A stretch of 64,000 bases of DNA from NCBI RefSeq assembly GCF_003205575.1, contig NZ_PYBW01000022.1:62001-126000 (forward strand), written 5' to 3'. Under the pieces are notes generated by a model. The model was not told where the DNA came from, searched no databases, and saw only the letters and a list, made by a program, of their open reading frames with translations. Each line of letters begins with the position of its first letter. Position 1 is the first letter of the stretch. Source of the DNA: Streptomyces tateyamensis. Lineage in GTDB: Bacteria; Actinomycetota; Actinomycetes; Streptomycetales; Streptomycetaceae. Both the position numbers and the translations under genes were made by a program. Shown here one piece after another: positions 12,504 through 22,034 of this stretch.

Positions 12504-12532
12504 GCATCCGGGACAGCTTTCCTCCCGGATGC
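12504..12532. terminator. Short hairpin between pgeF-like gene and xpb stub
   Basis: A perfect 10-bp inverted repeat (GCATCCGGGA with its complement) and a 9-nt loop, 71 nt after the pgeF-like stop and 46 nt before the original xpb start. It may end the upstream transcript or be part of the native xpb leader. There is no U-run. Confidence 0.4.
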
Positions 12533-12577
12533 GAGACACTGGAAAGTCTGCGACTGGACCTACGGAGGGCTCCTCGC

Positions 12578-12637
12578 GTGAACGACGGACCGCTGATCGT
12601 ACAGACGATTAAGCCTGATGCACATCGTAGACGCTGA
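12578..12637 (+). pseudogene. xpb: Truncated 5' end of the XPB helicase gene (left junction stub)
   Basis: The GTG at 12578 has GGAGGG 8 nt upstream and reads V-N-D-G-P-L-I-V-Q before running into foreign sequence and a TGA at 12635-12637. The first nine residues match what I recall of the streptomycete XPB start (M-N-G-P-L-I-V-Q-S-D-K). The missing continuation, L-I-V-Q-S-D-K-T-L-L-L-E, is found intact at 20412. This is the original start of xpb, severed by the element. A 19-residue peptide could still be made from the native ribosome binding site. Confidence 0.85.
12590..12610. other. attL: left junction of the integrated element
   Basis: The core ATCGT lies at 12596-12600, inside a larger match to the right junction (ATCGTnCAGA, 12596-12605). 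Left of the core is xpb coding sequence; right of it is element sequence. A reconstructed empty site would read ccgctgATCGTccagagcg. It encodes P-L-I-V-Q-S whichever of the shared bases is the true crossover point. Confidence 0.75.
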
Positions 12638-12779
12638 GTAGCCTTCGGAGGCACCCCGCCCGCAGCGCGGAAGTCCTCACGCGCCTGGTCAGCTGCACCA
12701 TCCCCGCACTGTCGGCCTACTCTGCCGGGTACTGTCCCTGCTGTAGGCCGAAGCGGTCCGACCGGTGGGAGGGACGACG

Positions 12780-14009
12780 GTGTTGGAGGAGCGGGAGTCG
12801 ATCGGGAAGCGCGTTCGTCGGCAGCGACTCCGACTTGGCATGCCTCAGGCCGATCTGGCAGCAACGCTCGGGCGGTCTCAGGGGTGGGTCTCGAAGGTCG
12901 AGAAGGGGCACATCGAACTCGACCGGGCCAGCCTCATCAATGAGGTTGCGGCTGCGCTGCACTGCCACCCGAACAACCTGATCGAGCGTCCGTTCGTTGC
13001 GGGCAAGGCATCCGAGAACCAGTGGCAGGTGGCCGCCGCGTCGATCCTGCGCGAGCTGCGGCGCTACGATCTAACGCCCGTCTTCGACGGCCGGCCCCGG
13101 ACCTCCCAGCACTTGTGGCAGGAGACGGAGCGCCTGCACCGCCTGCGCGACTCTGCGGCGAACGTCGCCATCCTGCGTGTCCTGCCCGACCTGCTGAGGG
13201 AGGCGCGGGCACTGGCCGAGATCTCCGAGGGTCACGAGCGCGAGGAAGCGTTCGGCATCTACGCCGTGTGCTGCAAGTTCGCCCACACGGCAGCGCACAC
13301 CCTCGGTCATCCGGAATTGATCGCCATGGCGTGCGAGCGCGCTGCCTGGGCTGCGGAGCGTTCTGGTGACGTGGTCCTGCCTGCGGTGGCCAACTGGATG
13401 CGTGTCTGGGACATGTGGGCCACCGCGGACTGGGCGGACTCGCTGGCTCTGTCGGACAAGGCCCTTCGGTCGATCGAGGATGAGTACGACGCGGGAGAGC
13501 CGCTGGCCATCCGGGCTTGGGGGACGCTCCAACTGCGCGCCGCCGTCTCGGCAGCAAGGGCCGGCCGGGCGGAGGAGACCGAGGGCCGCATCCGGCTGGC
13601 CCAGGTAGCCGCTGAGCGCATGGACGCCGACGAAGCGCCGGTGTTCGATCGCCACTCGCTGACCTTCTCCGCCGGGAACGTCCAAATCCACTCCATCTCA
13701 GTCCAGTTGGAAATGGGCGACCACGCCAAGGCCCTCGTGCTCCACGAGCGGGCCGACCATGAGCAGGTCGACATACTGCCGAACTCGCGGCGCGGCCATC
13801 ACCACATGGACCTGGCACGAGCCTGGCTCTGGGATGGCAACCGGGACAAAGCCCTCACAGAGTTGGAGAAGGCAGAGCACATCGCCCCCCAGCTCGTAAG
13901 GAACCATCCGATCGCTCGTGCCACATTGCGCAAGATCGTCTATGCGGAGCGGGCCACCACCCGGGAGAAACTGCGCCGCATGTCCGACCGCTTCCACCTG
14001 GACGGATAG
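12780..14009 (+). CDS. XRE-family regulator with TPR-like C-terminal domain
   Basis: 409 residues from the GTG at 12780. An N-terminal helix-turn-helix (about residues 8-62, with QADLAATLGRSQGWVSKVEKG) would bind DNA. The remaining about 330 residues are helical pairs of tetratricopeptide type (for example EEAFGIYAVCCKFAHTAAH and KALTELEKAEHIAPQL), a layout common in streptomycete regulators that sense peptides or partners. GGAGGG at 12768-12773 lies 6 nt before this GTG, so I prefer it to the in-frame GTG at 12765. It is the first gene inside the element and reads into the cassette. It likely controls the peptide operon or the element. Confidence 0.85.
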   Translation: MLEERESIGKRVRRQRLRLGMPQADLAATLGRSQGWVSKVEKGHIELDRASLINEVAAALHCHPNNLIERPFVAGKASENQWQVAAASILRELRRYDLTPVFDGRPRTSQHLWQETERLHRLRDSAANVAILRVLPDLLREARALAEISEGHEREEAFGIYAVCCKFAHTAAHTLGHPELIAMACERAAWAAERSGDVVLPAVANWMRVWDMWATADWADSLALSDKALRSIEDEYDAGEPLAIRAWGTLQLRAAVSAARAGRAEETEGRIRLAQVAAERMDADEAPVFDRHSLTFSAGNVQIHSISVQLEMGDHAKALVLHERADHEQVDILPNSRRGHHHMDLARAWLWDGNRDKALTELEKAEHIAPQLVRNHPIARATLRKIVYAERATTREKLRRMSDRFHLDG

Positions 14010-14062: not shown

Positions 14063-14317
14063 ATGAGCGGACGACGCATCACCCGCCAAGACGCGGACGA
14101 GCCCGCAACACCCTGGACTCCCCGCCTTGGTGACCTCGCACACGACACGAACACCGGGACCGTTGGCGTGATCGTTGACGTTCCCGGTGAGGGTGTCTAC
14201 TCCTACCACCTGCGCCCGCCCGAGGGCGGAGAGGAATGGACGGCCCCTCGGGACGCGACCACCCTGCACCCCGCCGACGGCACACCCTTCAACTCGCAGG
14301 GTGGTGGCCGCCTATGA
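14063..14317 (+). CDS. Small cassette protein, unknown function
   Basis: 84 residues, hydrophilic. A central beta-like stretch reads LGDLAHDTNTGTVGVIVDV, followed by YSYHLRPPEGGEEW. The pattern recalls small proteins that accompany XRE regulators and HATPase genes in Streptomyces, but I can name no family. There is no clear ribosome binding site before the ATG, so the message may be leaderless. Its stop overlaps the ATG of the HATPase gene (ATGA), so the two are probably co-translated. Confidence 0.7.
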   Translation: MSGRRITRQDADEPATPWTPRLGDLAHDTNTGTVGVIVDVPGEGVYSYHLRPPEGGEEWTAPRDATTLHPADGTPFNSQGGGRL

Positions 14318-14799
14318 GCGACACGGCTTCGTTTCCGGTGCCGTATGAGTGGGCTGGGGAGCCGGATGCGGCTGCGGTGCCGACGGCGCGGCGGTTGATC
14401 ATCGAGCTTGTGCGGTTCTGGAAGGTCCCGATGTCGGATGACGCGCTGCGCGATGTGGAGCTGTGCGCGAGCGAGTTGCTGGCGAACGCGGTTGAGCACA
14501 CGAAGGCACGGTGTCACGTGACCGTGCGGTGGACGGGCCAGCGCCTTCGTGTGGAAGTCGCCGACACCAGTCTTCATCTCCCGGACCCGGACACCGCCCA
14601 GGACACGACCACGGGCGGGCGGGGGCTACTCCTGGTGGCGGGGCTGGCGCACGCGTGGGGCTGGGAGCCGGCCGGTGCGGGCAAGGTGGTCTGGTTCGAG
14701 TGCGCGGCCGATCAGATGGTGACGGGTGATCGGCGCCTGACGGTCCTCGTGGGTGCCGCACATGCCAAGGTCACGGAACGCCTGTCGCGTTCGGCCTGA
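14314..14799 (+). CDS. HATPase-domain protein (RsbW/SpoIIAB-like anti-sigma or regulatory kinase)
   Basis: 161 residues, a single GHKL ATPase domain. The N-box is ELLANAVEH at about residues 53-61. The G-box region is VADTSLHLPDPD followed by TGGRGLLLVAGLAHAWGWEP at about residues 98-119. There is no histidine dimerisation domain, so it resembles streptomycete RsbW-like proteins that act as anti-sigma factors or Ser kinases. Its target is unknown; the XRE protein or a chromosomal sigma factor are possibilities. It overlaps the preceding small gene by ATGA and is followed by the micropeptides after 138 nt. Confidence 0.85.
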   Translation: MSDTASFPVPYEWAGEPDAAAVPTARRLIIELVRFWKVPMSDDALRDVELCASELLANAVEHTKARCHVTVRWTGQRLRVEVADTSLHLPDPDTAQDTTTGGRGLLLVAGLAHAWGWEPAGAGKVVWFECAADQMVTGDRRLTVLVGAAHAKVTERLSRSA

Positions 14800-14937: not shown

Positions 14938-14997
14938 GTGAGTACGCCCACACCCGGCCCGCCGACCCCGGGCCCGATGCCCCCGGACGGGGCCTGA
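14938..14997 (+). CDS. Micropeptide 1, proline-rich (candidate RiPP precursor)
   Basis: A 19-codon frame, GTG to TGA, reading MSTPTPGPPTPGPMPPDGA. A GGGAG at about 14924-14928 is 9 nt before the start, which is the best evidence that it is translated. Eight of 19 residues are Pro, and it ends P-P-D-G-A: Asp-Gly is the classic site for aspartimide or isoaspartate formation. It is followed by a stable hairpin and then a second Pro-rich micropeptide coupled to a PIMT-like methyltransferase. It could be a precursor peptide, a leader peptide for attenuation, or chance; coding status is not proven. Confidence 0.5.
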   Translation: MSTPTPGPPTPGPMPPDGA

Positions 14998-15001
14998 GAC
15001 T

Positions 15002-15047
15002 CCCGTGCGGGCCGGGCCTCGTTGTCCTGGTGTCCGGCCCACACGGG
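15002..15047. terminator. Intra-operon hairpin between the two micropeptides
   Basis: A 14-bp stem (left arm 15002-15015 starting CCCGTGCGGG, right arm 15034-15047) with one G-U type mismatch and an 18-nt loop, not followed by a U-run. It begins 4 nt after micropeptide 1 stops and ends 33 nt before micropeptide 2 starts. It could partly terminate transcription or stabilise the upstream mRNA, giving more micropeptide 1 than downstream enzyme. Confidence 0.5.
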
Positions 15048-15080
15048 TCCAACTGTTCCACTTGAGAAGGGAGATCAGAG

Positions 15081-15200
15081 ATGGGGAAGCACGGAGGGAG
15101 TCCGGCGCCGATCACGCCGCCGACTCCGTCGAACCCGCCGTCCGGGCCGCCGTCGCCTGACAGCGGGCCCCCGCCCGGCAATGGAGGGCACCGTAAGTGA
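15081..15200 (+). CDS. Micropeptide 2, proline-rich, coupled to PIMT-like methyltransferase (candidate RiPP precursor)
   Basis: 39 residues, beginning MGKHGGSPAPITPPTPSNPP, continuing with Ser/Pro/Gly repeats and ending GNGGHRK. AAGGGAG (15067-15073) lies 7 nt before the ATG. The TGA overlaps the GTG of the methyltransferase (GTGA), so the two are translated together. It contains Pro-Asp-Ser near residue 27 and Asn-Gly at residues 34-35, both favoured sites of succinimide or isoaspartate formation, matching the enzyme type next door. There is no signal peptide or lanthipeptide-like Cys/Ser pattern. Precursor status is an inference from size, coupling and neighbours. Confidence 0.6.
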   Translation: MGKHGGSPAPITPPTPSNPPSGPPSPDSGPPPGNGGHRK

Positions 15201-16396
15201 CGCTCGATCCTGATCGGGAGGGCCGCCCCGGCACCACTGCGGGGCGGCACCTTCCCGGCGACTCGTCCCCGGCCGCTGACTCCGGTCGCACGCCTGAGCA
15301 GTGGTGGTCGGTGGTGTTCGGCGCGGTGCCGCGCTCGCTGTTCCTGCCGGATGTGATCTGGGCTCACGACATGGCCACCGGCACGAACGTGGCCCTGGAC
15401 CGCACGACGGACCCCGATGGCTGGGCTGAGGCCGCAAACGCCCCGCATGCGCCGATTGTGACGCAGTGGGACGACGGCGACCACGAGGGCCTGGAGCCCG
15501 GCCGGGTGCCCACCTCGTCCGCATCCCAGCCGACCTTGGTCTACTCGATGCTGCTGGATCTCGATGTGCTGTCGGGGATGCGGGTGCTGGAGATCGGCAC
15601 CGGAACGGGGTGGAACGCGGCCTTGCTGTCGTGCCGACTGGGCGACGCGAACGTGACCACGGTCGAGGTGGACCCCGAGGTGTCCGCCCGTGCCCGTGCG
15701 GCCTTGAAGGCGTCGGGGTACACGCCCGAGGTGGTGTGTGCGGACGGCTCGCTCGGCTGGCTCGCCTCCGCTCCATATGACCGGATCATCGTCACGTGCG
15801 GGGTGCGGGAGATCCCGCCCGCGTGGCTGAGCCAGACCCGGGTGGGCGGGCTGATCCTGGCCCCGTTCGGCACGCACTACGGTCACCAGGACGCCTTGGT
15901 GAAGCTGACGGTCCAGCTCGACGGCACAGCGTCGGGTCCGTTCCTCGGGCCGGTGCAGTTCATGAAGATGCGCTCGCAGCGCCTGGTGCGCCCTGCGCAT
16001 CCGGACTTCCCCGGGGACTCGGTGGAGACCTCCACCCGGGTGCGGGTGCCGCTGGGGGACTGGGAGCCGTTCACGTTCGCGGCGAGTCTGCTGGTGCCCG
16101 GTGTCACGCACCTGGTCCACGAGCGGGACGACGGGGTGACGGTGCTGTGGCTCTACAGTCTCGCCGACACGTCGTGGGCTGCGGTCTTCTACGACGAAGA
16201 GGCCGAGTGGGAGGTGTACCAGTCGGGTCCCCGGAAGCTGTGGGACCTGGTGGAAGCCGCCCATGCCTGGTGGCAGTCGGCCGGTGAGCCGGACTTCGAC
16301 CGCTTCGGGATGACCGTGGGCCATACCGCCGGCCGAACGTTCTGGCTCGACGGCCCCGAGCAGCCGTTGCCGGTCCTGGGGGTGGGTCCGCGGTGA
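15197..16396 (+). CDS. PIMT-like (protein-L-isoaspartate methyltransferase family) SAM-dependent methyltransferase
   Basis: 399 residues. It has a PIMT-like catalytic core: TSSASQPTLVYSML at about residues 106-119 (counterpart of the substrate/SAM loop of isoaspartyl methyltransferases), SAM motif I VLEIGTGTGWNAALL at about 130-144, acidic VTTVEVDP near 153, then YDRIIVTCGVREIPPAW and LILAPFG. About 100 residues before the core (with VPRSLFLPDVIW) and about 180 after it are extra compared with a housekeeping Pcm enzyme. That resembles methyltransferases found beside ATP-grasp or other RiPP genes. Translation is coupled to micropeptide 2 and, by GTGA overlap, to the next gene. Predicted role: methyl ester or aspartimide formation on the micropeptides. 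Confidence 0.82.
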   Translation: MTLDPDREGRPGTTAGRHLPGDSSPAADSGRTPEQWWSVVFGAVPRSLFLPDVIWAHDMATGTNVALDRTTDPDGWAEAANAPHAPIVTQWDDGDHEGLEPGRVPTSSASQPTLVYSMLLDLDVLSGMRVLEIGTGTGWNAALLSCRLGDANVTTVEVDPEVSARARAALKASGYTPEVVCADGSLGWLASAPYDRIIVTCGVREIPPAWLSQTRVGGLILAPFGTHYGHQDALVKLTVQLDGTASGPFLGPVQFMKMRSQRLVRPAHPDFPGDSVETSTRVRVPLGDWEPFTFAASLLVPGVTHLVHERDDGVTVLWLYSLADTSWAAVFYDEEAEWEVYQSGPRKLWDLVEAAHAWWQSAGEPDFDRFGMTVGHTAGRTFWLDGPEQPLPVLGVGPR

Positions 16397-16683
16397 GGCT
16401 GCGCGACGCCGCCACCCGCCTGGACATGTGGTGGCACCTGCACGGGCAGTTCTCGTGGCCGGTGCGCATGGTGTGGCCCAGCAGGCGCCGGGTCTACGCG
16501 CAGGTGGGTGAGTGGCTGGCCGAACCTGGCTACCAGCGCGCGTCTCTGGAGCGGGTAACCGCGAGGGTGGCTGAGCGGCAAGCCCTCCACGAGCGCCTGG
16601 CCGCCGAGCTCGATCAAATGCCTCTGCCTTCCGAGGCGGAGTTGTTCGAGCGGATCTTCGGCCGTCCGCCGGCCGACCTGTGA
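16393..16683 (+). CDS. Hypothetical 96-residue cassette protein
   Basis: Starts at a GTG overlapping the methyltransferase stop (GTGA) and ends in another GTGA overlap, so it lies inside the cassette operon. It is basic at the N-terminus, with Trp-rich MWWHLHGQFSWPVRMVW around residues 12-28. A helical, coiled-coil-like middle (SLERVTARVAERQALHERLAAELDQM) follows, then a conserved-looking LFERIFGRPPADL end. The aromatic patch could be membrane-associated or a peptide-binding site. I recognise no family and assign no function. Confidence 0.7.
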   Translation: MRLRDAATRLDMWWHLHGQFSWPVRMVWPSRRRVYAQVGEWLAEPGYQRASLERVTARVAERQALHERLAAELDQMPLPSEAELFERIFGRPPADL

Positions 16684-16853
16684 CCGACCGGGGTCCACTC
16701 GGGGACGACAGTCAGAGCGAGTACCACGATGCCGCCGAACGGGACCGCTGCGGGGTGCCCGATCCGCCGTCCCTGACGGCCGCCTTCGGGGTCTCGATCG
16801 CCGCGCTGGTGCTGGTGTGCGCGGTGTTGCTGGCGGCGGGCCTGGGCCGCTGA
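16680..16853 (+). CDS. Small single-pass membrane protein of the cassette
   Basis: 57 residues from a GTG that overlaps the previous stop (GTGA). A hydrophilic acidic N-terminal half (MTDRGPLGDDSQSEYHDAAE) is followed by a hydrophobic helix at about residues 36-54 (TAAFGVSIAALVLVCAVLLAAG) and a terminal Arg. This predicts a C-tail-anchored or single-TM protein. Operon position is the main evidence. It could help export or anchor the modified peptide, or serve immunity; this is not shown by sequence. Confidence 0.6.
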   Translation: MTDRGPLGDDSQSEYHDAAERDRCGVPDPPSLTAAFGVSIAALVLVCAVLLAAGLGR

Positions 16854-16882: not shown

Positions 16883-17278
16883 GTGGCTTCTGCCGAACTC
16901 GACCGCACCATGGTCGTGGACCTCTACCGCCAGGGCGAGAGCATGAAGGCGATCGCGGCCCTGATGGGCGTCTCGCCAAGCACCATCTCGAAGCGCCTGG
17001 ACGGCTGGGGCGAGCGCAAGCGTGATGTCCGGGAGGTGGGCCGCCTGCACGCCACCTCGGGGACCAAGCGCGGCAAGGCTTTGGGGCGCAAGCCGTGGGC
17101 TGAGGCGTTCGTCAACGCGGGCGGGCGTCAGCACTGCCCGACCTGCCGGGAGATGTCCGCTGACCATCAACGGGCCCGCTCCCGCGCGGATTCCGATGCC
17201 ATGGCCGAGATCGTGGAGCGCTTCGCCGCGCACGCCGTCCAGTCGCATCCGCACATGCGCCGTCTGTACGGGGACTGA
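16883..17278 (+). CDS. Helix-turn-helix protein with CxxC motif (resolvase-HTH/InsE-like)
   Basis: 131 residues from a GTG with AAGGAAGGGAG about 9 nt upstream. The N-terminal part LYRQGESMKAIAALMGVSPSTISKRLDGWG (about residues 10-40) is a Hin/InsE-type helix-turn-helix. A Lys/Arg-rich stretch and a single CPTC motif (HCPTCREM near residue 90) follow; one CxxC alone is only half a typical zinc knuckle. It may be a DNA-binding regulator of the element or its excision. It is the last gene of the cassette and is followed by a strong hairpin. Confidence 0.75.
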   Translation: MASAELDRTMVVDLYRQGESMKAIAALMGVSPSTISKRLDGWGERKRDVREVGRLHATSGTKRGKALGRKPWAEAFVNAGGRQHCPTCREMSADHQRARSRADSDAMAEIVERFAAHAVQSHPHMRRLYGD

Positions 17279-18215: not shown

Positions 18216-18716
18216 ATGTCCGATCCGCGAAAGGCCGGCCTCGTGTGCGCTGCACCCCTATCACAGCTTCGGCCTGACGCGTCCGGCCGAAGACCGCCGA
18301 AGTTTGTTCCACCGCGCGGTCACACCACGCCTTGGGCCGCCATCTATGGAGGGCAACACGGCGGACCGCAGAGAAGTTCGCCGCAGATGTCACACGGCGG
18401 CTCAAAACCGGGCCTGTATCAGGTGACAGGGCGCCCACCCCGAACACACGTGGCAACCAGCACCCTGGTGCCGAGCACAACTGTCCGCTTCCGGCTCGCC
18501 CAGGCCGATCAACTCGGTGTGTTCCGCTTTCAGTCCACGTCCTGGGACCTCGCCGAGACGGTCATGGACGTACAGCAAGAACTCGCCGCGTCCGACGGCC
18601 CCTCACTCTGCAAACTCTCGCTTCAACTGGTCCGTTTTTCGACTCGCAACGGCACTGCCATGGCGTTCCGCAAACCGGCGCTAACGGTTCTTCGAACCAC
18701 CGATGAACAGGACTGA
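18216..18716 (+). pseudogene. Remnant of a gp3-like recombination directionality factor
   Basis: From about 18459 to the stop the frame encodes PSTTVRFRLAQADQLGVFRF, STSWDLAETV, LSLQLVRFSTRNG and FRKPALTVL. By memory this closely follows the C-terminal half of phiC31 gp3-like directionality factors (pattern T-V-T-F-R-L-A...L-G-x-F-R-F...S-W-L...Y-K-P-V-V). The 80 codons before it show none of the expected N-terminal sequence, and no other frame upstream supplies it. It therefore looks truncated. It lies convergent to the serine integrase, as such partners often do. If non-functional, the element could no longer be excised by its own factor. Confidence 0.65.
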
Positions 18717-18779: not shown

Positions 18780-20375
18780 TCAGTCCGTCGCAGTGCTCTT
18801 CCCTGCTGCGGACCGGCGCATGAGTCCCTCCTCGCCGAAGTGAACGGCAAGCCGAGACAGGTCCAGTACCTTGCCCGCCTTTTCCGCAGGGGCCACTTCG
18901 ACATATGCGCCCGTACTGAGCAACAGGTCCCGCTTCCCTGCCGCGTCGGCGTCCCGCCAGACCTCCGCGTGGGTCTTGCCGGTCGGAACCACCTCTACTC
19001 CCGCTGGCCTCGCGTGCTGCTGCCGCTCCTTCAACTCGGCAAGCCGCTCCTCAAGGCGCGCGTACTGCACCGTGTACCGCTGTGCACCGTCGGCGCCTTT
19101 GAACAGGCCGCGCTCGTACCGGTCCTTCTCCAGATCGCTCAGCGCCTCCTCGGCCTGGCGGATCTGCGGCCGATAATTCTCCCCGGCGTGCTCGACCATC
19201 CGCACCACCGGCAGGCGCCCGAACTTCCGCAGGAACTCGGACTCCACGTGGTCCTCCATCCCCTGCCCCGCGATGCTCACGCCGTAGCAGTCGATCGCCT
19301 CGCCGCCCTGGCGCTTCTTGAGCCGACCGATGCAGCGGTACCGGGTCCGCCCACCGGCCACGTAGGTGTACATCCGGAACCCGCAGAGTGCGCAGTGCAC
19401 CACTCCACGCAGTAGCGAGGTAGCTTCGCGCCGCCGCTCCCCAGGGTTGGCCCGTCGCGTCAGCTCGTCCTGGAGCGCCTGCCAGGTGTCCATGTCCAGG
19501 ATAGGCGGCCGGTTCACCAGGGGCAGCCCATCCGTCCGCAGGATGGGCTTGCCGTCCTCGATCACCTGGCCCAGCAACTGCGGGTTGGTGAGCAGACTCC
19601 GAAGCGAGGTCGTGTACCACTTCTTCGAGGCACTGCGCTTGCCCGTGGTCTGGCGCGAGGTGTGCCCTGGCGACGGGACTCCGGCCTTGGTGAGGTCATT
19701 CGCGATCTGGATCAGCGAATCCTTCGCCAGGACCCGTGTCACGATCGCCTGAATGATCTCTGCTTCCTCCTGGTTGACGACCAGCACCTTCCCGGCCCCG
19801 TCCGGGTTCGGCACCACCTTGTACCCGTACGGCACGCGTCCGCCGGTGTACCGCCCTTCCCGTCGCAGATGCTCGTGGGCGCCCGAGACCCGCATGCCGA
19901 TGGTGTCCGACTCCAGCTCGGCGAACACGGCGATCACCTTCGCCATCGCCCGTCCCATGGACGACGTGAGGTCCAGCGGCTCGGTCGCCGACGCCAGCGC
20001 AACGCTCTGCGCCTCGGTGATCTTCATGATCTCGGCGAAGTCCACCGTCGACCGCGCAAGCCGGTCGATCTTGAAGAAGACGATCACGTCGAACTCGTCG
20101 AGTCGGGCCAGGATCCTCTGCAGCCCCGGGCGCTCCAGCCCCCGAGAGAAGCCCGAAACGTCGATGTCCTCCTCGACCACCACCACGCGCCACCCGCGCG
20201 CCGCACACAACTGCTCGCAGGCCGCGCGCTGCCTCTCAGGGGAAGTGGTCTCCTCTGTTTCGCGCGATAGGCGAACATAGATAGCGGCGCGCATGCCAGG
20301 CGCGCTCGCCGGGACGCCCTTGCGCCGCCGGGCTCGGGGCATCGCCCTGGGGATTTCAACGGTTGGGTCAGTCAC
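18780..20375 (-). CDS. int: Large serine integrase
   Basis: 531 residues. The resolvase catalytic domain starts AAIYVRLSRETEET, with nucleophile Ser near residue 37, then ERQRAACEQL, DIDVSGFSRGLERPGL and FFKIDRLARS. A recombinase domain follows (YTGGRVPYGYKV ... GVPSPG ... WYTTSLRSLLTNPQLLGQV), then a zinc ribbon (CALCGFRMYTYVAGGRTRYRC ... IDC) near residues 345-380 and a coiled coil. All catalytic-domain signatures look intact. The GTG at 20375 has AGGA 7 nt upstream; an in-frame ATG at 20294 would begin right at the catalytic domain. It is divergent from the resumed xpb, so each gene's promoter must lie in or near the other's 5' end. Confidence 0.93.
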   Translation of the reverse strand: MTDPTVEIPRAMPRARRRKGVPASAPGMRAAIYVRLSRETEETTSPERQRAACEQLCAARGWRVVVVEEDIDVSGFSRGLERPGLQRILARLDEFDVIVFFKIDRLARSTVDFAEIMKITEAQSVALASATEPLDLTSSMGRAMAKVIAVFAELESDTIGMRVSGAHEHLRREGRYTGGRVPYGYKVVPNPDGAGKVLVVNQEEAEIIQAIVTRVLAKDSLIQIANDLTKAGVPSPGHTSRQTTGKRSASKKWYTTSLRSLLTNPQLLGQVIEDGKPILRTDGLPLVNRPPILDMDTWQALQDELTRRANPGERRREATSLLRGVVHCALCGFRMYTYVAGGRTRYRCIGRLKKRQGGEAIDCYGVSIAGQGMEDHVESEFLRKFGRLPVVRMVEHAGENYRPQIRQAEEALSDLEKDRYERGLFKGADGAQRYTVQYARLEERLAELKERQQHARPAGVEVVPTGKTHAEVWRDADAAGKRDLLLSTGAYVEVAPAEKAGKVLDLSRLAVHFGEEGLMRRSAAGKSTATD

Positions 20376-20390
20376 GTGGCGATCCTAATC

Positions 20391-20424
20391 ACGGAGGTAT
20401 GTGTGTCCTGCCTAATCGTCCAGA
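20391..20424. other. attR and substitute translation start for xpb
   Basis: The right core ATCGT is at 20415-20419 within ATCGTcCAGA. Just before it, inside element sequence, GGAGG (20393-20397) is followed 5 nt later by GTG (20403). The element end therefore supplies a new ribosome binding site and start codon in frame with the severed xpb. A reconstructed element site would read tgcctaATCGTacagacga. Confidence 0.75.
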
Positions 20425-22034
20425 GCGACAAGACGCTGCTCCTGGAGATCGACCACCCCAAGGCCGCCGAGTGCCGGCGGGCCATCGCGCCGTTCGCCGA
20501 GTTGGAGCGGGCTCCCGAGCACGTGCACACCTACCGGGTCACCCCGCTGGGGCTGTGGAACGCGCGCGCGGCCGGCCATGACGCGGAGCAGGTGGTGGAC
20601 GCGCTGGTGAACTACTCGCGCTACCCGGTGCCGCACGCGCTGCTGGTGGACGTGGCCGACACGATGGCGCGGTACGGGCGTTTGCAGTTGGTCAAGCACC
20701 CCACCCACGGGCTGGTGATGAGCACCACCGACCGGCCGGTTCTCGAGGAGGTGCTCAAGTCCAAGAAGATCGCCCCGCTGGTGGGGGCCCGGGTGGACCC
20801 GGACACCGTGGTCGTGCACCCGTCCGAGCGCGGGCAGATCAAGCAGGTGCTGCTCAAGCTGGGCTGGCCGGCCGAGGACCACGCCGGGTACGTGGACGGC
20901 GAGGCGCACCCGATCGAGCTGGAGCAGGACGGCTGGCAGCTGCGCCCCTACCAGCAGCAGGCGGTGGAGGGGTTCTGGCACGGCGGCAGCGGCGTCGTGG
21001 TGCTGCCCTGCGGGGCCGGCAAGACGCTGGTCGGCGCGGCGGCGATGGCCGAGGCCAAGTCGACCACGCTGATCCTGGTCACCAACACCGTCTCGGCCCG
21101 GCAGTGGAAGCACGAGCTGGTCAAGCGGACCTCGTTGACCGAGGACGAGATCGGCGAGTACAGCGGGACCAAGAAGGAGATCCGCCCGGTCACCATCGCC
21201 ACCTACCAGGTGATGACGACCAAGCGGAAGGGCAGCTACGCGCACCTGGAGCTGTTCGACGCCCGCAACTGGGGCCTGGTGGTCTACGACGAGGTGCACC
21301 TGCTGCCGGCCCCGGTGTTCAAGTTCACCGCTGACCTGCAGGCGCGCCGCCGGCTCGGCCTGACCGCGACCCTGGTGCGCGAGGACGGCCGGGAGGGGGA
21401 CGTGTTCAGCCTGATCGGCCCCAAGCGGTTCGACGCGCCGTGGAAGGAGATCGAGGCGCAGGGCTACATCGCGCCGGCCGACTGCTGCGAGGTCCGGGTC
21501 ACCCTCACCGACTCCGAGCGGCTGGCGTACGCCACCGCGGAGCCGGAGGAGCGCTACCGGTTCTGCTCCACCACCGCGACCAAGCGGCGGGTGGTGGAGG
21601 CGCTGGTGAAGAAGCACGAGAAGGACCAGACGCTGGTCATCGGCCAGTACATCGACCAGTTGGACGAGCTGGGCGAGGTGCTGGACGCCCCGGTGATCAA
21701 GGGCGAGACCAGCAATCTCCAGCGCGAGAAGCTGTTCGAGGCGTTCCGGAACAAGGAGATCAGCGTGCTGGTGGTCTCCAAGGTGGCGAACTTCTCGATC
21801 GACCTGCCGGAGGCCACGGTGGCGATCCAGGTCTCCGGGACCTTCGGCTCCCGCCAGGAGGAGGCCCAGCGGCTGGGCCGGGTGCTGCGGCCCAAGGCGG
21901 ACGGGCACATGGCCCACTTCTACTCGGTGGTCGCCCGGGACACGGTGGACCAGGACTTCGCGGCCCACCGCCAGCGCTTCCTCGCCGAGCAGGGGTACTC
22001 CTACCGCATCATCGACGCCGACGAGGTGCTGTAA
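20403..22034 (+). CDS. xpb: XPB/Ssl2-type DNA repair helicase, restarted by element-derived start codon
   Basis: 543 residues from the GTG at 20403 (an upstream in-frame GTG at 20376 would add nine). It is a superfamily 2 DNA helicase acting in DNA repair or remodelling. It has an N-terminal XPB-specific domain, Walker A LPCGAGKTLVGAA near residue 200, DEVH box (VVYDEVHLLPAP) near 295, SGTFGSRQEEAQRLGRVLRPK motif VI near 480 and a thumb-like insert. Conserved host sequence begins L-I-V-Q-S-D-K, where the stub at 12578 ends. Only the first few residues changed (V-S-C in place of V-N-D-G-P), so the protein should remain active, but its promoter is now element-derived. Confidence 0.92.
   Translation: MSCLIVQSDKTLLLEIDHPKAAECRRAIAPFAELERAPEHVHTYRVTPLGLWNARAAGHDAEQVVDALVNYSRYPVPHALLVDVADTMARYGRLQLVKHPTHGLVMSTTDRPVLEEVLKSKKIAPLVGARVDPDTVVVHPSERGQIKQVLLKLGWPAEDHAGYVDGEAHPIELEQDGWQLRPYQQQAVEGFWHGGSGVVVLPCGAGKTLVGAAAMAEAKSTTLILVTNTVSARQWKHELVKRTSLTEDEIGEYSGTKKEIRPVTIATYQVMTTKRKGSYAHLELFDARNWGLVVYDEVHLLPAPVFKFTADLQARRRLGLTATLVREDGREGDVFSLIGPKRFDAPWKEIEAQGYIAPADCCEVRVTLTDSERLAYATAEPEERYRFCSTTATKRRVVEALVKKHEKDQTLVIGQYIDQLDELGEVLDAPVIKGETSNLQREKLFEAFRNKEISVLVVSKVANFSIDLPEATVAIQVSGTFGSRQEEAQRLGRVLRPKADGHMAHFYSVVARDTVDQDFAAHRQRFLAEQGYSYRIIDADEVL

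Follow-up and report, generated by a model that had tools for sequence, protein, structure and literature searches.

Imiditides and type I pamtides, which the review PMC13001092 treats as one class while citing 1414 type I pamtides, are the products of two-gene clusters. According to Lee et al. (PMC10787088), these comprise a precursor of ~45 residues rich in Gly, Pro and Asp and a PIMT-like methyltransferase (PAMT) with a C-terminal domain. For the pair SpaA/SpaM, methyl ester (+14), aspartimide (-18) and unchanged-mass species are reported there, isoAsp not being directly confirmed. According to PMC13001092, charge interactions and the precursor C-terminal tail are important, PAMTs share a WXXXGXP motif, replacing the final five residues of SpaA with Ala abolishes modification, and in NmaA a His follows the Asp. 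Here we describe a locus in Streptomyces tateyamensis, in a stretch of 64,000 nucleotides (contig NZ_PYBW01000022.1, positions 62,001 to 126,000; hereafter the window), in which a 39-residue peptide (peptide 2) and the PAMT encoded directly after it very probably form an imiditide pair that would modify Asp27 of the peptide, as judged from sequence comparison and structure modelling. A first inspection of the sequence, the original prediction, had taken the locus for an uncharacterised, minimal system of ribosomally synthesised and post-translationally modified peptide (RiPP) type. Since a two-gene unit of precursor and PAMT is what defines imiditides, a class described in 2023, neither label holds; in both papers, precursor plus PAMT alone is the definition of the class. 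The core pair is a new example of something already known, and what is new is its setting.

Two short Pro-rich frames of 19 and 39 residues, each behind a ribosome-binding site (RBS), are indeed present together with the 399-residue enzyme and frames of 96 and 57 residues, and three 4-base GTGA overlaps join peptide 2, the methyltransferase and the latter two frames, all as first described. The frames lie within 14938-16853 as proposed, but the genes that belong together extend past these coordinates.

14938-14997, + strand: peptide 1, GTG start, 19 residues, RBS AAGGGAG, MSTPTPGPPTPGPMPPDGA; probable leader or regulatory micropeptide
15002-15051, + strand: GC-rich hairpin between peptides 1 and 2 (folding, z -2.08)
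15081-15200, + strand: peptide 2, ATG start, 39 residues, RBS AAGGGAG, MGKHGGSPAPITPPTPSNPPSGPPSPDSGPPPGNGGHRK; imiditide-type precursor, predicted modified residue Asp27
15197-16396, + strand: PAMT with C-terminal domain, GTG start, 399 residues (Pfam PCMT 3e-26)
16393-16683, + strand: accessory 96-residue protein without family match
16680-16853, + strand: 57-residue protein with a single hydrophobic segment by eye, without family match

PAMT relatives are widespread, occurring at E<=1e-30 in 57 of the 70 genus genomes, its own included. In 29 reference loci (L005-L033; loci are cited by such numbers), whose frames were chosen by the 4-base overlap and the presence of Asp-Gly or Asp-Ser anywhere, a frame of 39-54 residues ends in the identical 4-base overlap with the enzyme gene in every case. 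Alignment of these precursor frames reveals a single invariant Asp column (29/29, or 30/30 with the window), into which Asp27, the sole Asp of peptide 2, falls. The residue after this Asp is Gly in 28 reference frames and Ser in one (L029, PSPDSGPPPGNGGHRK); the window has Ser28. We then turned to the best 80 of 372 further loci from named genomes (L034-L113), where one hidden Markov model (HMM) built from all 29 frames matched beside the enzyme in 47 (E<=1e-3) and two class HMMs combined did so in 63, with no class HMM match away from the enzyme on either strand in stretches of up to 1.7 kb. The motif is clear by eye in nine of the 17 loci missed (L044, L053, L054, L067, L069, L075-L077 and L083). 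A pN/pS ratio (nonsynonymous to synonymous change) of 0.28 was obtained over the final 13 codons of 25 precursors (L005-L029). Together, the conserved frame, the Asp column, the enzyme-only HMM matches and the pN/pS ratio imply that peptide 2 is a protein-coding gene retained together with the enzyme, and Asp27 is its predicted modification site. The search for homologous methyltransferases with short coupled frames, suggested at the outset as a check, thus found equivalents of peptide 2 in 29/29 plus 63/80 loci.

The enzyme fits the same class. Its PCMT match stops at residue 256 of 399, leaving a C-terminal extension of more than 100 residues. In an AlphaFold2 model with a predicted local distance difference test score of 87.7 (residues 1-28 low), this extension resembles the C-terminal domain of the Thermotoga maritima PIMT 1DL5, the best match in the Protein Data Bank by Foldseek, two chains of which ranked first and third. 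The alignments span 363-372 columns including the C-terminal domain, with 20-22% identity, a moderate TM score of 0.48-0.61 and a root-mean-square deviation of 7.9-8.6. 1DL5 itself is not known to be a peptide-cluster enzyme. WQSAGEP at residues 359-365 of the window PAMT fits the WXXXGXP motif; an alignment of the window enzyme with those of 29 of the 80 loci (30 sequences) shows no variation at W359 and P365. A tree of 95 PAMTs places the window enzyme in a clade of 21 members (support 0.989), together with loci from L005-L026 at distances of 1.16-1.33, and these loci carry the same type of precursor.

Several observations weigh against the assignment. Seventeen of the 95 relatives, including L014 and L016 of the window's own clade, have no WXXXGXP motif in their final 90 residues, so that the motif is not diagnostic. 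Among the loci missed by the HMMs, five of the 80 show no clear precursor by eye (L065, L088, L089, L094 and L101), L091 is partial, L095 doubtful by eye, and L052 offers only 59 bases upstream. Peptide 2 itself has Ser rather than Gly after Asp27, and its N-terminus, MGKHGG, holds no acidic residue, unlike that of many class precursors, while its C-terminus has HRK. We judge the last two deviations, the Asp-Ser site and the non-acidic N-terminus, to be minor for class membership.

Compared by description only, the locus resembles NmaA-NmaM of Nonomuraea maritima and SpaA-SpaM of Streptomyces sparsogenes in its two-gene arrangement of precursor and PAMT without a cyclase, in a linear peptide rich in Pro and Gly whose Asp is conserved and whose C-terminus is basic, and in an enzyme with a C-terminal domain and WXXXGXP. 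It differs in the Asp-Ser where relatives mostly have Asp-Gly and in the N-terminus that is not acidic. It is further set apart by an additional micropeptide that is conserved, by the XRE, p84 and HATPase genes that precede the pair, and by a serine integrase in the same stretch. L114, L115 and L117 hold candidate precursors, among which SpaA of S. sparsogenes may lie. The features around the pair are as follows.

12528-12605, + strand: left remnant, the initial codons of an XPB helicase gene and the region before them (similarity to L197, L198 and L199)
12765-14009, + strand: XRE-type regulator, 414 residues (Pfam HTH_31 6e-07; weak TPR matches, 0.05)
14063-14317, + strand: p84, a small protein usually encoded 3' of the XRE gene, without Pfam or NCBIfam match
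14314-14799, + strand: HATPase_c_2, anti-sigma-like ATPase, 161 residues (Pfam HATPase_c_2 6e-15)
16883-17278, + strand: small accessory HTH protein, 131 residues (Pfam HTH_38 5e-08)
18216-18716, + strand: candidate Gp3-like recombination directionality factor frame (weak partial match to Pfam PF18897)
18780-20375, - strand: large serine integrase at the element's right end (matches to Pfam Resolvase, 7e-34, Recombinase and Zn ribbon)
20412-22034, + strand: right flank, remainder of the XPB helicase gene; homology with uninterrupted copies begins at 20412

The 5' region of the XPB helicase gene is contiguous in L194-L199. The window has its start at 12528-12605 but the remainder only from 20412 on, with ~7.8 kb between them that hold the genes from XRE through HTH as well as the serine integrase. 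Over 79 bases the left remnant matches the contiguous 5' region of L197, L198 and L199 at 80-81% identity, and CT(G/A)ATCGT(A/C)CAGA is common to both junctions. L210 shows the same split of XPB with an 80% identical integrase. In L209 an integrase of 80% identity lies beside XPB and the homology begins at the same point, no left remnant being found in the stretch examined. The frame at 18216-18716 matches PF18897 over 57 residues at 1.6e-4 and 22.0 bits, under the cut-off of 23.6, which fits the neighbouring integrase. On this sequence evidence the ~7.8-kb stretch looks like a small integrating element that interrupts the 5' end of XPB. Related genes also lie upstream of XPB in L151 and L204, where its 5' region is uninterrupted, which makes their arrangement a different event from that in the window. 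In L204, XRE and p84 with a 45% HATPase match stand next to XPB, and a short frame there resembles joined N- and C-terminal parts of a PAMT, by eye a decayed cassette.

By analogy with the characterised relatives, from which both the chemistry and the mode of recognition are taken over, peptide 2 and the PAMT would be made from one message with coupled translation. The enzyme would bind the linear peptide, probably through its basic C-terminal tail (GGHRK) and the enzyme's own C-terminal domain, and would methylate the side chain of Asp27 with S-adenosylmethionine. The methyl ester could then close unaided to an aspartimide with Ser28, which may hydrolyse to isoAsp/Asp. The Asp-Ser site offers a natural variant in which to see how the residue following Asp steers what becomes of methyl ester and aspartimide. 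We infer that the XRE, p84 and HATPase genes and peptide 1 may control expression, and that the whole cassette may be cargo that a ~7.8-kb serine-integrase element carries within XPB.

The PAMT could instead have formerly tailored a cyclised peptide, in a graspetide or lanthipeptide cluster whose cyclase was lost; relatives of the XRE regulator do precede ATP-grasp-like and PAMT genes elsewhere (L247, L276 and L279, by eye). The best NCBIfam match of the enzyme is TIGR04188, the graspetide methyltransferase model. The group 13 graspetides (graspimiditides; TIGR04187/TIGR04188) have a homologous methyltransferase; here, however, no ATP-grasp gene is among those tested, and the TIGR04188 score of 322.1 bits is under the cut-off of 380. 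This score resembles those of four PAMTs without a known cyclase (L034, L114, L115 and the phage locus L295), which in ascending order are 273.7, 316.7, 324.1 and 337.2. The FxLD lanthipeptide methyltransferases (TIGR04364) likewise share a homologous domain, but the window PAMT reaches only 121.4 bits against a cut-off of 320, the window peptides lack Cys and no lanthipeptide enzyme is among the proteins tested. As a control from the same genome, contig C429 (L122, 3968-6437) carries a graspetide-type cluster that differs from the window pair: a candidate precursor, an ATP-grasp gene (TIGR04187, 398.8 bits) and, overlapping it, a PAMT gene that scores 435.7 with TIGR04188, over the cut-off. 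Six PAMTs labelled graspetide, L122 by HMM and the other five by eye, sit at tree distances of 3.5-4.0 from the window enzyme, which belongs to a clade whose loci hold the same precursor type as its own. Pfam and NCBIfam searches of peptide 2 and of eight proteins from the element gave no ATP-grasp, LanB/C or YcaO match, and a Pfam search of six further frames of 17.3-18.7 kb gave no RiPP cyclase match. The proposal of a RiPP made by a PIMT homologue without a cyclase partner is in this respect borne out, the features of peptide 2 fitting a precursor, and we regard a cyclase-less remnant as very unlikely. Slightly less credible still is an ordinary protein-repair PIMT beside an unrelated upstream frame. 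The PCMT domain would suit it, yet the enzyme has its C-terminal extension and a conserved peptide joined to it by a 4-base overlap, and the repair models NF001453 (98 against a cut-off of 188) and TIGR00080 (78 against 159) fall far short. An imiditide pair remains the preferred reading of peptide 2 and its enzyme.

A separate matter is whether peptide 1 is a second substrate, as its Asp-Gly had suggested at first, in which case both micropeptides would be modified by the PAMT and the locus would make two products. Frames at its position, between HATPase and precursor, are kept in L175, L176 and L178 and end in PGPM(P/V)P and a short tail (PGPMPPDGNRTAA in L175, PGPMPPRGNRTAA in L176, PGPMVPNRSDAAA in L178). 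The window and L175 both retain Asp-Gly, and one locus (L299) does have two precursor-like frames. In L176, however, Arg takes the place of this Asp, a second L176 copy has Gly there, and L178 lacks it. Nor does peptide 1 have the basic C-terminal tail of peptide 2 and its relatives; in SpaA, replacing the last five residues with Ala abolished modification (PMC13001092). Of the residues singled out originally, the Asp-Ser of peptide 2 is there, but peptide 1 ends in Asp-Gly-Ala rather than Asp-Gly. Because its Asp is not conserved we do not take peptide 1 as a substrate, and two products seem improbable; a leader or regulatory peptide is more likely on sequence grounds. That it is translated is suggested by the codons for PGPMPPD, which differ only at third positions between the window, L175 and L180, the last a decayed copy that keeps PGPMPPDFG with no start codon before an inner ATG. 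Another frame with PGPMPPG lies ~0.3 kb upstream of the second PAMT in L176, and a PGPMPP match ~1 kb upstream of the L078 PAMT has no start in frame and is left unassigned. PPD and PPG motifs stall ribosomes without EF-P. Peptide 1 might accordingly be a stalling leader whose poly-Pro PGPMPPD, with the hairpin, sets expression of peptide 2 and the PAMT. The conserved PGPM.P near the C-terminus, the synonymous-only changes and the hairpin point that way; the last has a minimum free energy of -37.5 kcal/mol for 14995-15075, with 6 of 200 shuffles equally good, and a similar inverted repeat is visible by eye in L180. Against it, the spacers of L175, L176 and L178 span only 38-46 bases with no obvious hairpin by eye, PPD is missing in L176 and L178, and a longer stretch containing the hairpin folds unremarkably (z -0.79). 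A stem-loop upstream of peptide 1 gave z -0.99 for its stretch. We hold stalling as a tentative idea, with somewhat less than an even chance.

The genes around the pair are a different matter from the pair itself. In 112 other PAMT loci (E<=1e-4; L002-L033 were covered for only ~1.5 kb per side, and some others end at contig ends), XRE-like genes occurred in 8 and HATPase-like genes in 6, and p84, the 96-residue, 57-residue and HTH proteins had no match. Most of the XRE and HATPase matches are distant (22-43%) or far off, the exception being L057, with an XRE relative of 65% identity ~1.6 kb upstream of the PAMT. Since these neighbours are rare or absent, the conserved unit is the precursor and PAMT pair alone. 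The 96- and 57-residue genes, which had been noted originally as linked by overlaps, and the HTH gene were rejected as parts of a conserved RiPP operon (0/112). Relatives of the 96-residue protein occur in 18 of 70 genus genomes and those of the HTH protein (E<=1e-15) in 3 of 70, the own genome included in both counts. Of 11 such 96-residue loci examined, one (L151) has a PAMT. L151 alone repeats the order HATPase, precursor, PAMT, p96 and HTH, and it does so with a PAMT of a different type (40%) beside the uninterrupted XPB 5' region. Relatives of the XRE regulator, 66-95% identical (E<=1e-150), are found in 59 of 394 family genomes, again with the own genome included. Of 61 stretches that bear XRE, 53 also have p84, a tally in which the window and two overlapping pairs are counted. 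Elsewhere XRE relatives also precede FxLD-like precursors (L246 and L286, by eye). XRE-type DUF397/DUF5753 pairs near group 13 graspetides, as described in PMC13097080, are a related yet different pairing. A defence system was considered and rejected, as PADLOC gave partial matches only (mad2 over 118 residues, and HTH models).

Besides the window, we surveyed 19 places with 66-83% identical HATPase relatives, leaving out the listed place G016:C64. What follows 3' of the HATPase varies: a PAMT in five (L151 and L175-L178, all outside the window's clade in the tree), a JmjC-like enzyme preceded by a peptide of 44-56 residues in seven (L181, L183, L185, L187 and L189-L191), a radical SAM gene in two (L186 and L188), TauD in one (L184), and decayed or unrecognisable sequence in four (L179, L180, L182 and L192). 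An XRE relative precedes the HATPase in only five (L175, L179, L180, L182 and L183), with p84 too in four of these, and the other 14 have no XRE match. The full XRE-p84-HATPase set stands before an intact cassette in the window (imiditide), in L175 (another PAMT type) and in L183 (JmjC), whose XRE and p84 are 95% and 83% identical to those of the window. L241 and L293 (G094) have tandem full sets without a PAMT. Because such different kinds of gene lie behind one HATPase type, the comparison, on few loci, suggests that cassettes are swapped behind a common regulator.

Some of these cassettes are of interest in their own right. The JmjC-associated peptides, e.g. MVQDT..GGLLVA..SDGND, form a candidate RiPP family in the seven loci named above (Pfam JmjC_2 was run on L181 and L183), and some JmjC-peptide cassettes are followed by an aldo/keto reductase-like gene, by eye. 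CYTH-domain and radical SAM genes follow this HATPase type in L186, where Pfam was run, and in L188, where they were assigned by similarity. A single HATPase type ahead of varied modifying enzymes offers a way to look for more small peptide systems, of which the JmjC-peptide cassettes are an example.

PAMT relatives also occur on replicons beyond the chromosome, on 68 of 72,556 plasmid records and 9 of 50,697 phage records (E<=1e-30). Eight of the nine are records of five S. venezuelae phages, namely PapayaSalad, Bioscum, Ididsumtinwong, Austintatious and Alderaan. In PapayaSalad (L295, 4768-6107), the product of gene 25 is MSGKHGGGSGSGSGGSQQDDSSSGRQHGGGGSETSGGNSSDGSGPSKK; the PAMT gene, 24, follows it directly, and a tRNA gene, a regulator and a serine integrase are found in the vicinity. 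Alderaan has a similar peptide frame before its PAMT. The phage family phrog_13505 (Austintatiousvirus phages) is ~45% identical to the window PAMT. It differs in that the precursor-like peptide of PapayaSalad is of another sequence type, separated from the enzyme gene by an 8-base gap rather than overlapping it, and in that no HATPase is annotated nearby. L296, listed among temperate Streptomyces phages and viral contigs, has an imiditide-type precursor directly before the PAMT gene.

What is new is thus a pair inside a serine-integrase element, like pairs in phages, with hints of an exchangeable regulator module; no report of phage-borne or element-borne imiditides was found in the literature searched. 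A wider reading, possible though we think it unlikely, is that imiditide pairs are cargo of Streptomyces mobile elements and temperate phages, partly behind a portable control module (the HATPase, in some copies XRE and p84, and the Pro-rich leader micropeptide) with exchanged peptide-modifying cassettes, and that the product serves the element or lysogen, for instance in competition or signalling. A pair beside an integrase, PAMTs on plasmids and a pair in temperate phages of S. venezuelae offer a direct route to the biological role of imiditides, which could be sought by comparing lysogens with and without the pair.

Viral contigs contributed 18 further PAMT relatives. Of 17 searched, nine gave a precursor match at E<=1e-3 (L298, L299 twice, L301-L307), L300 lay just above that threshold, L308, L309 and L311 look precursor-like by eye, and four show no precursor. 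L304 and L305 are probably the same phages as Ididsumtinwong and Austintatious, judging by equal record lengths, and others may be prophages in bacterial genomes. The viral contig L299 has two precursor-like frames before a single PAMT, and in L309, from a viral metagenome, CxxCxGxG-like motifs precede the PAMT, as in type II pamtides (cysimiditides).

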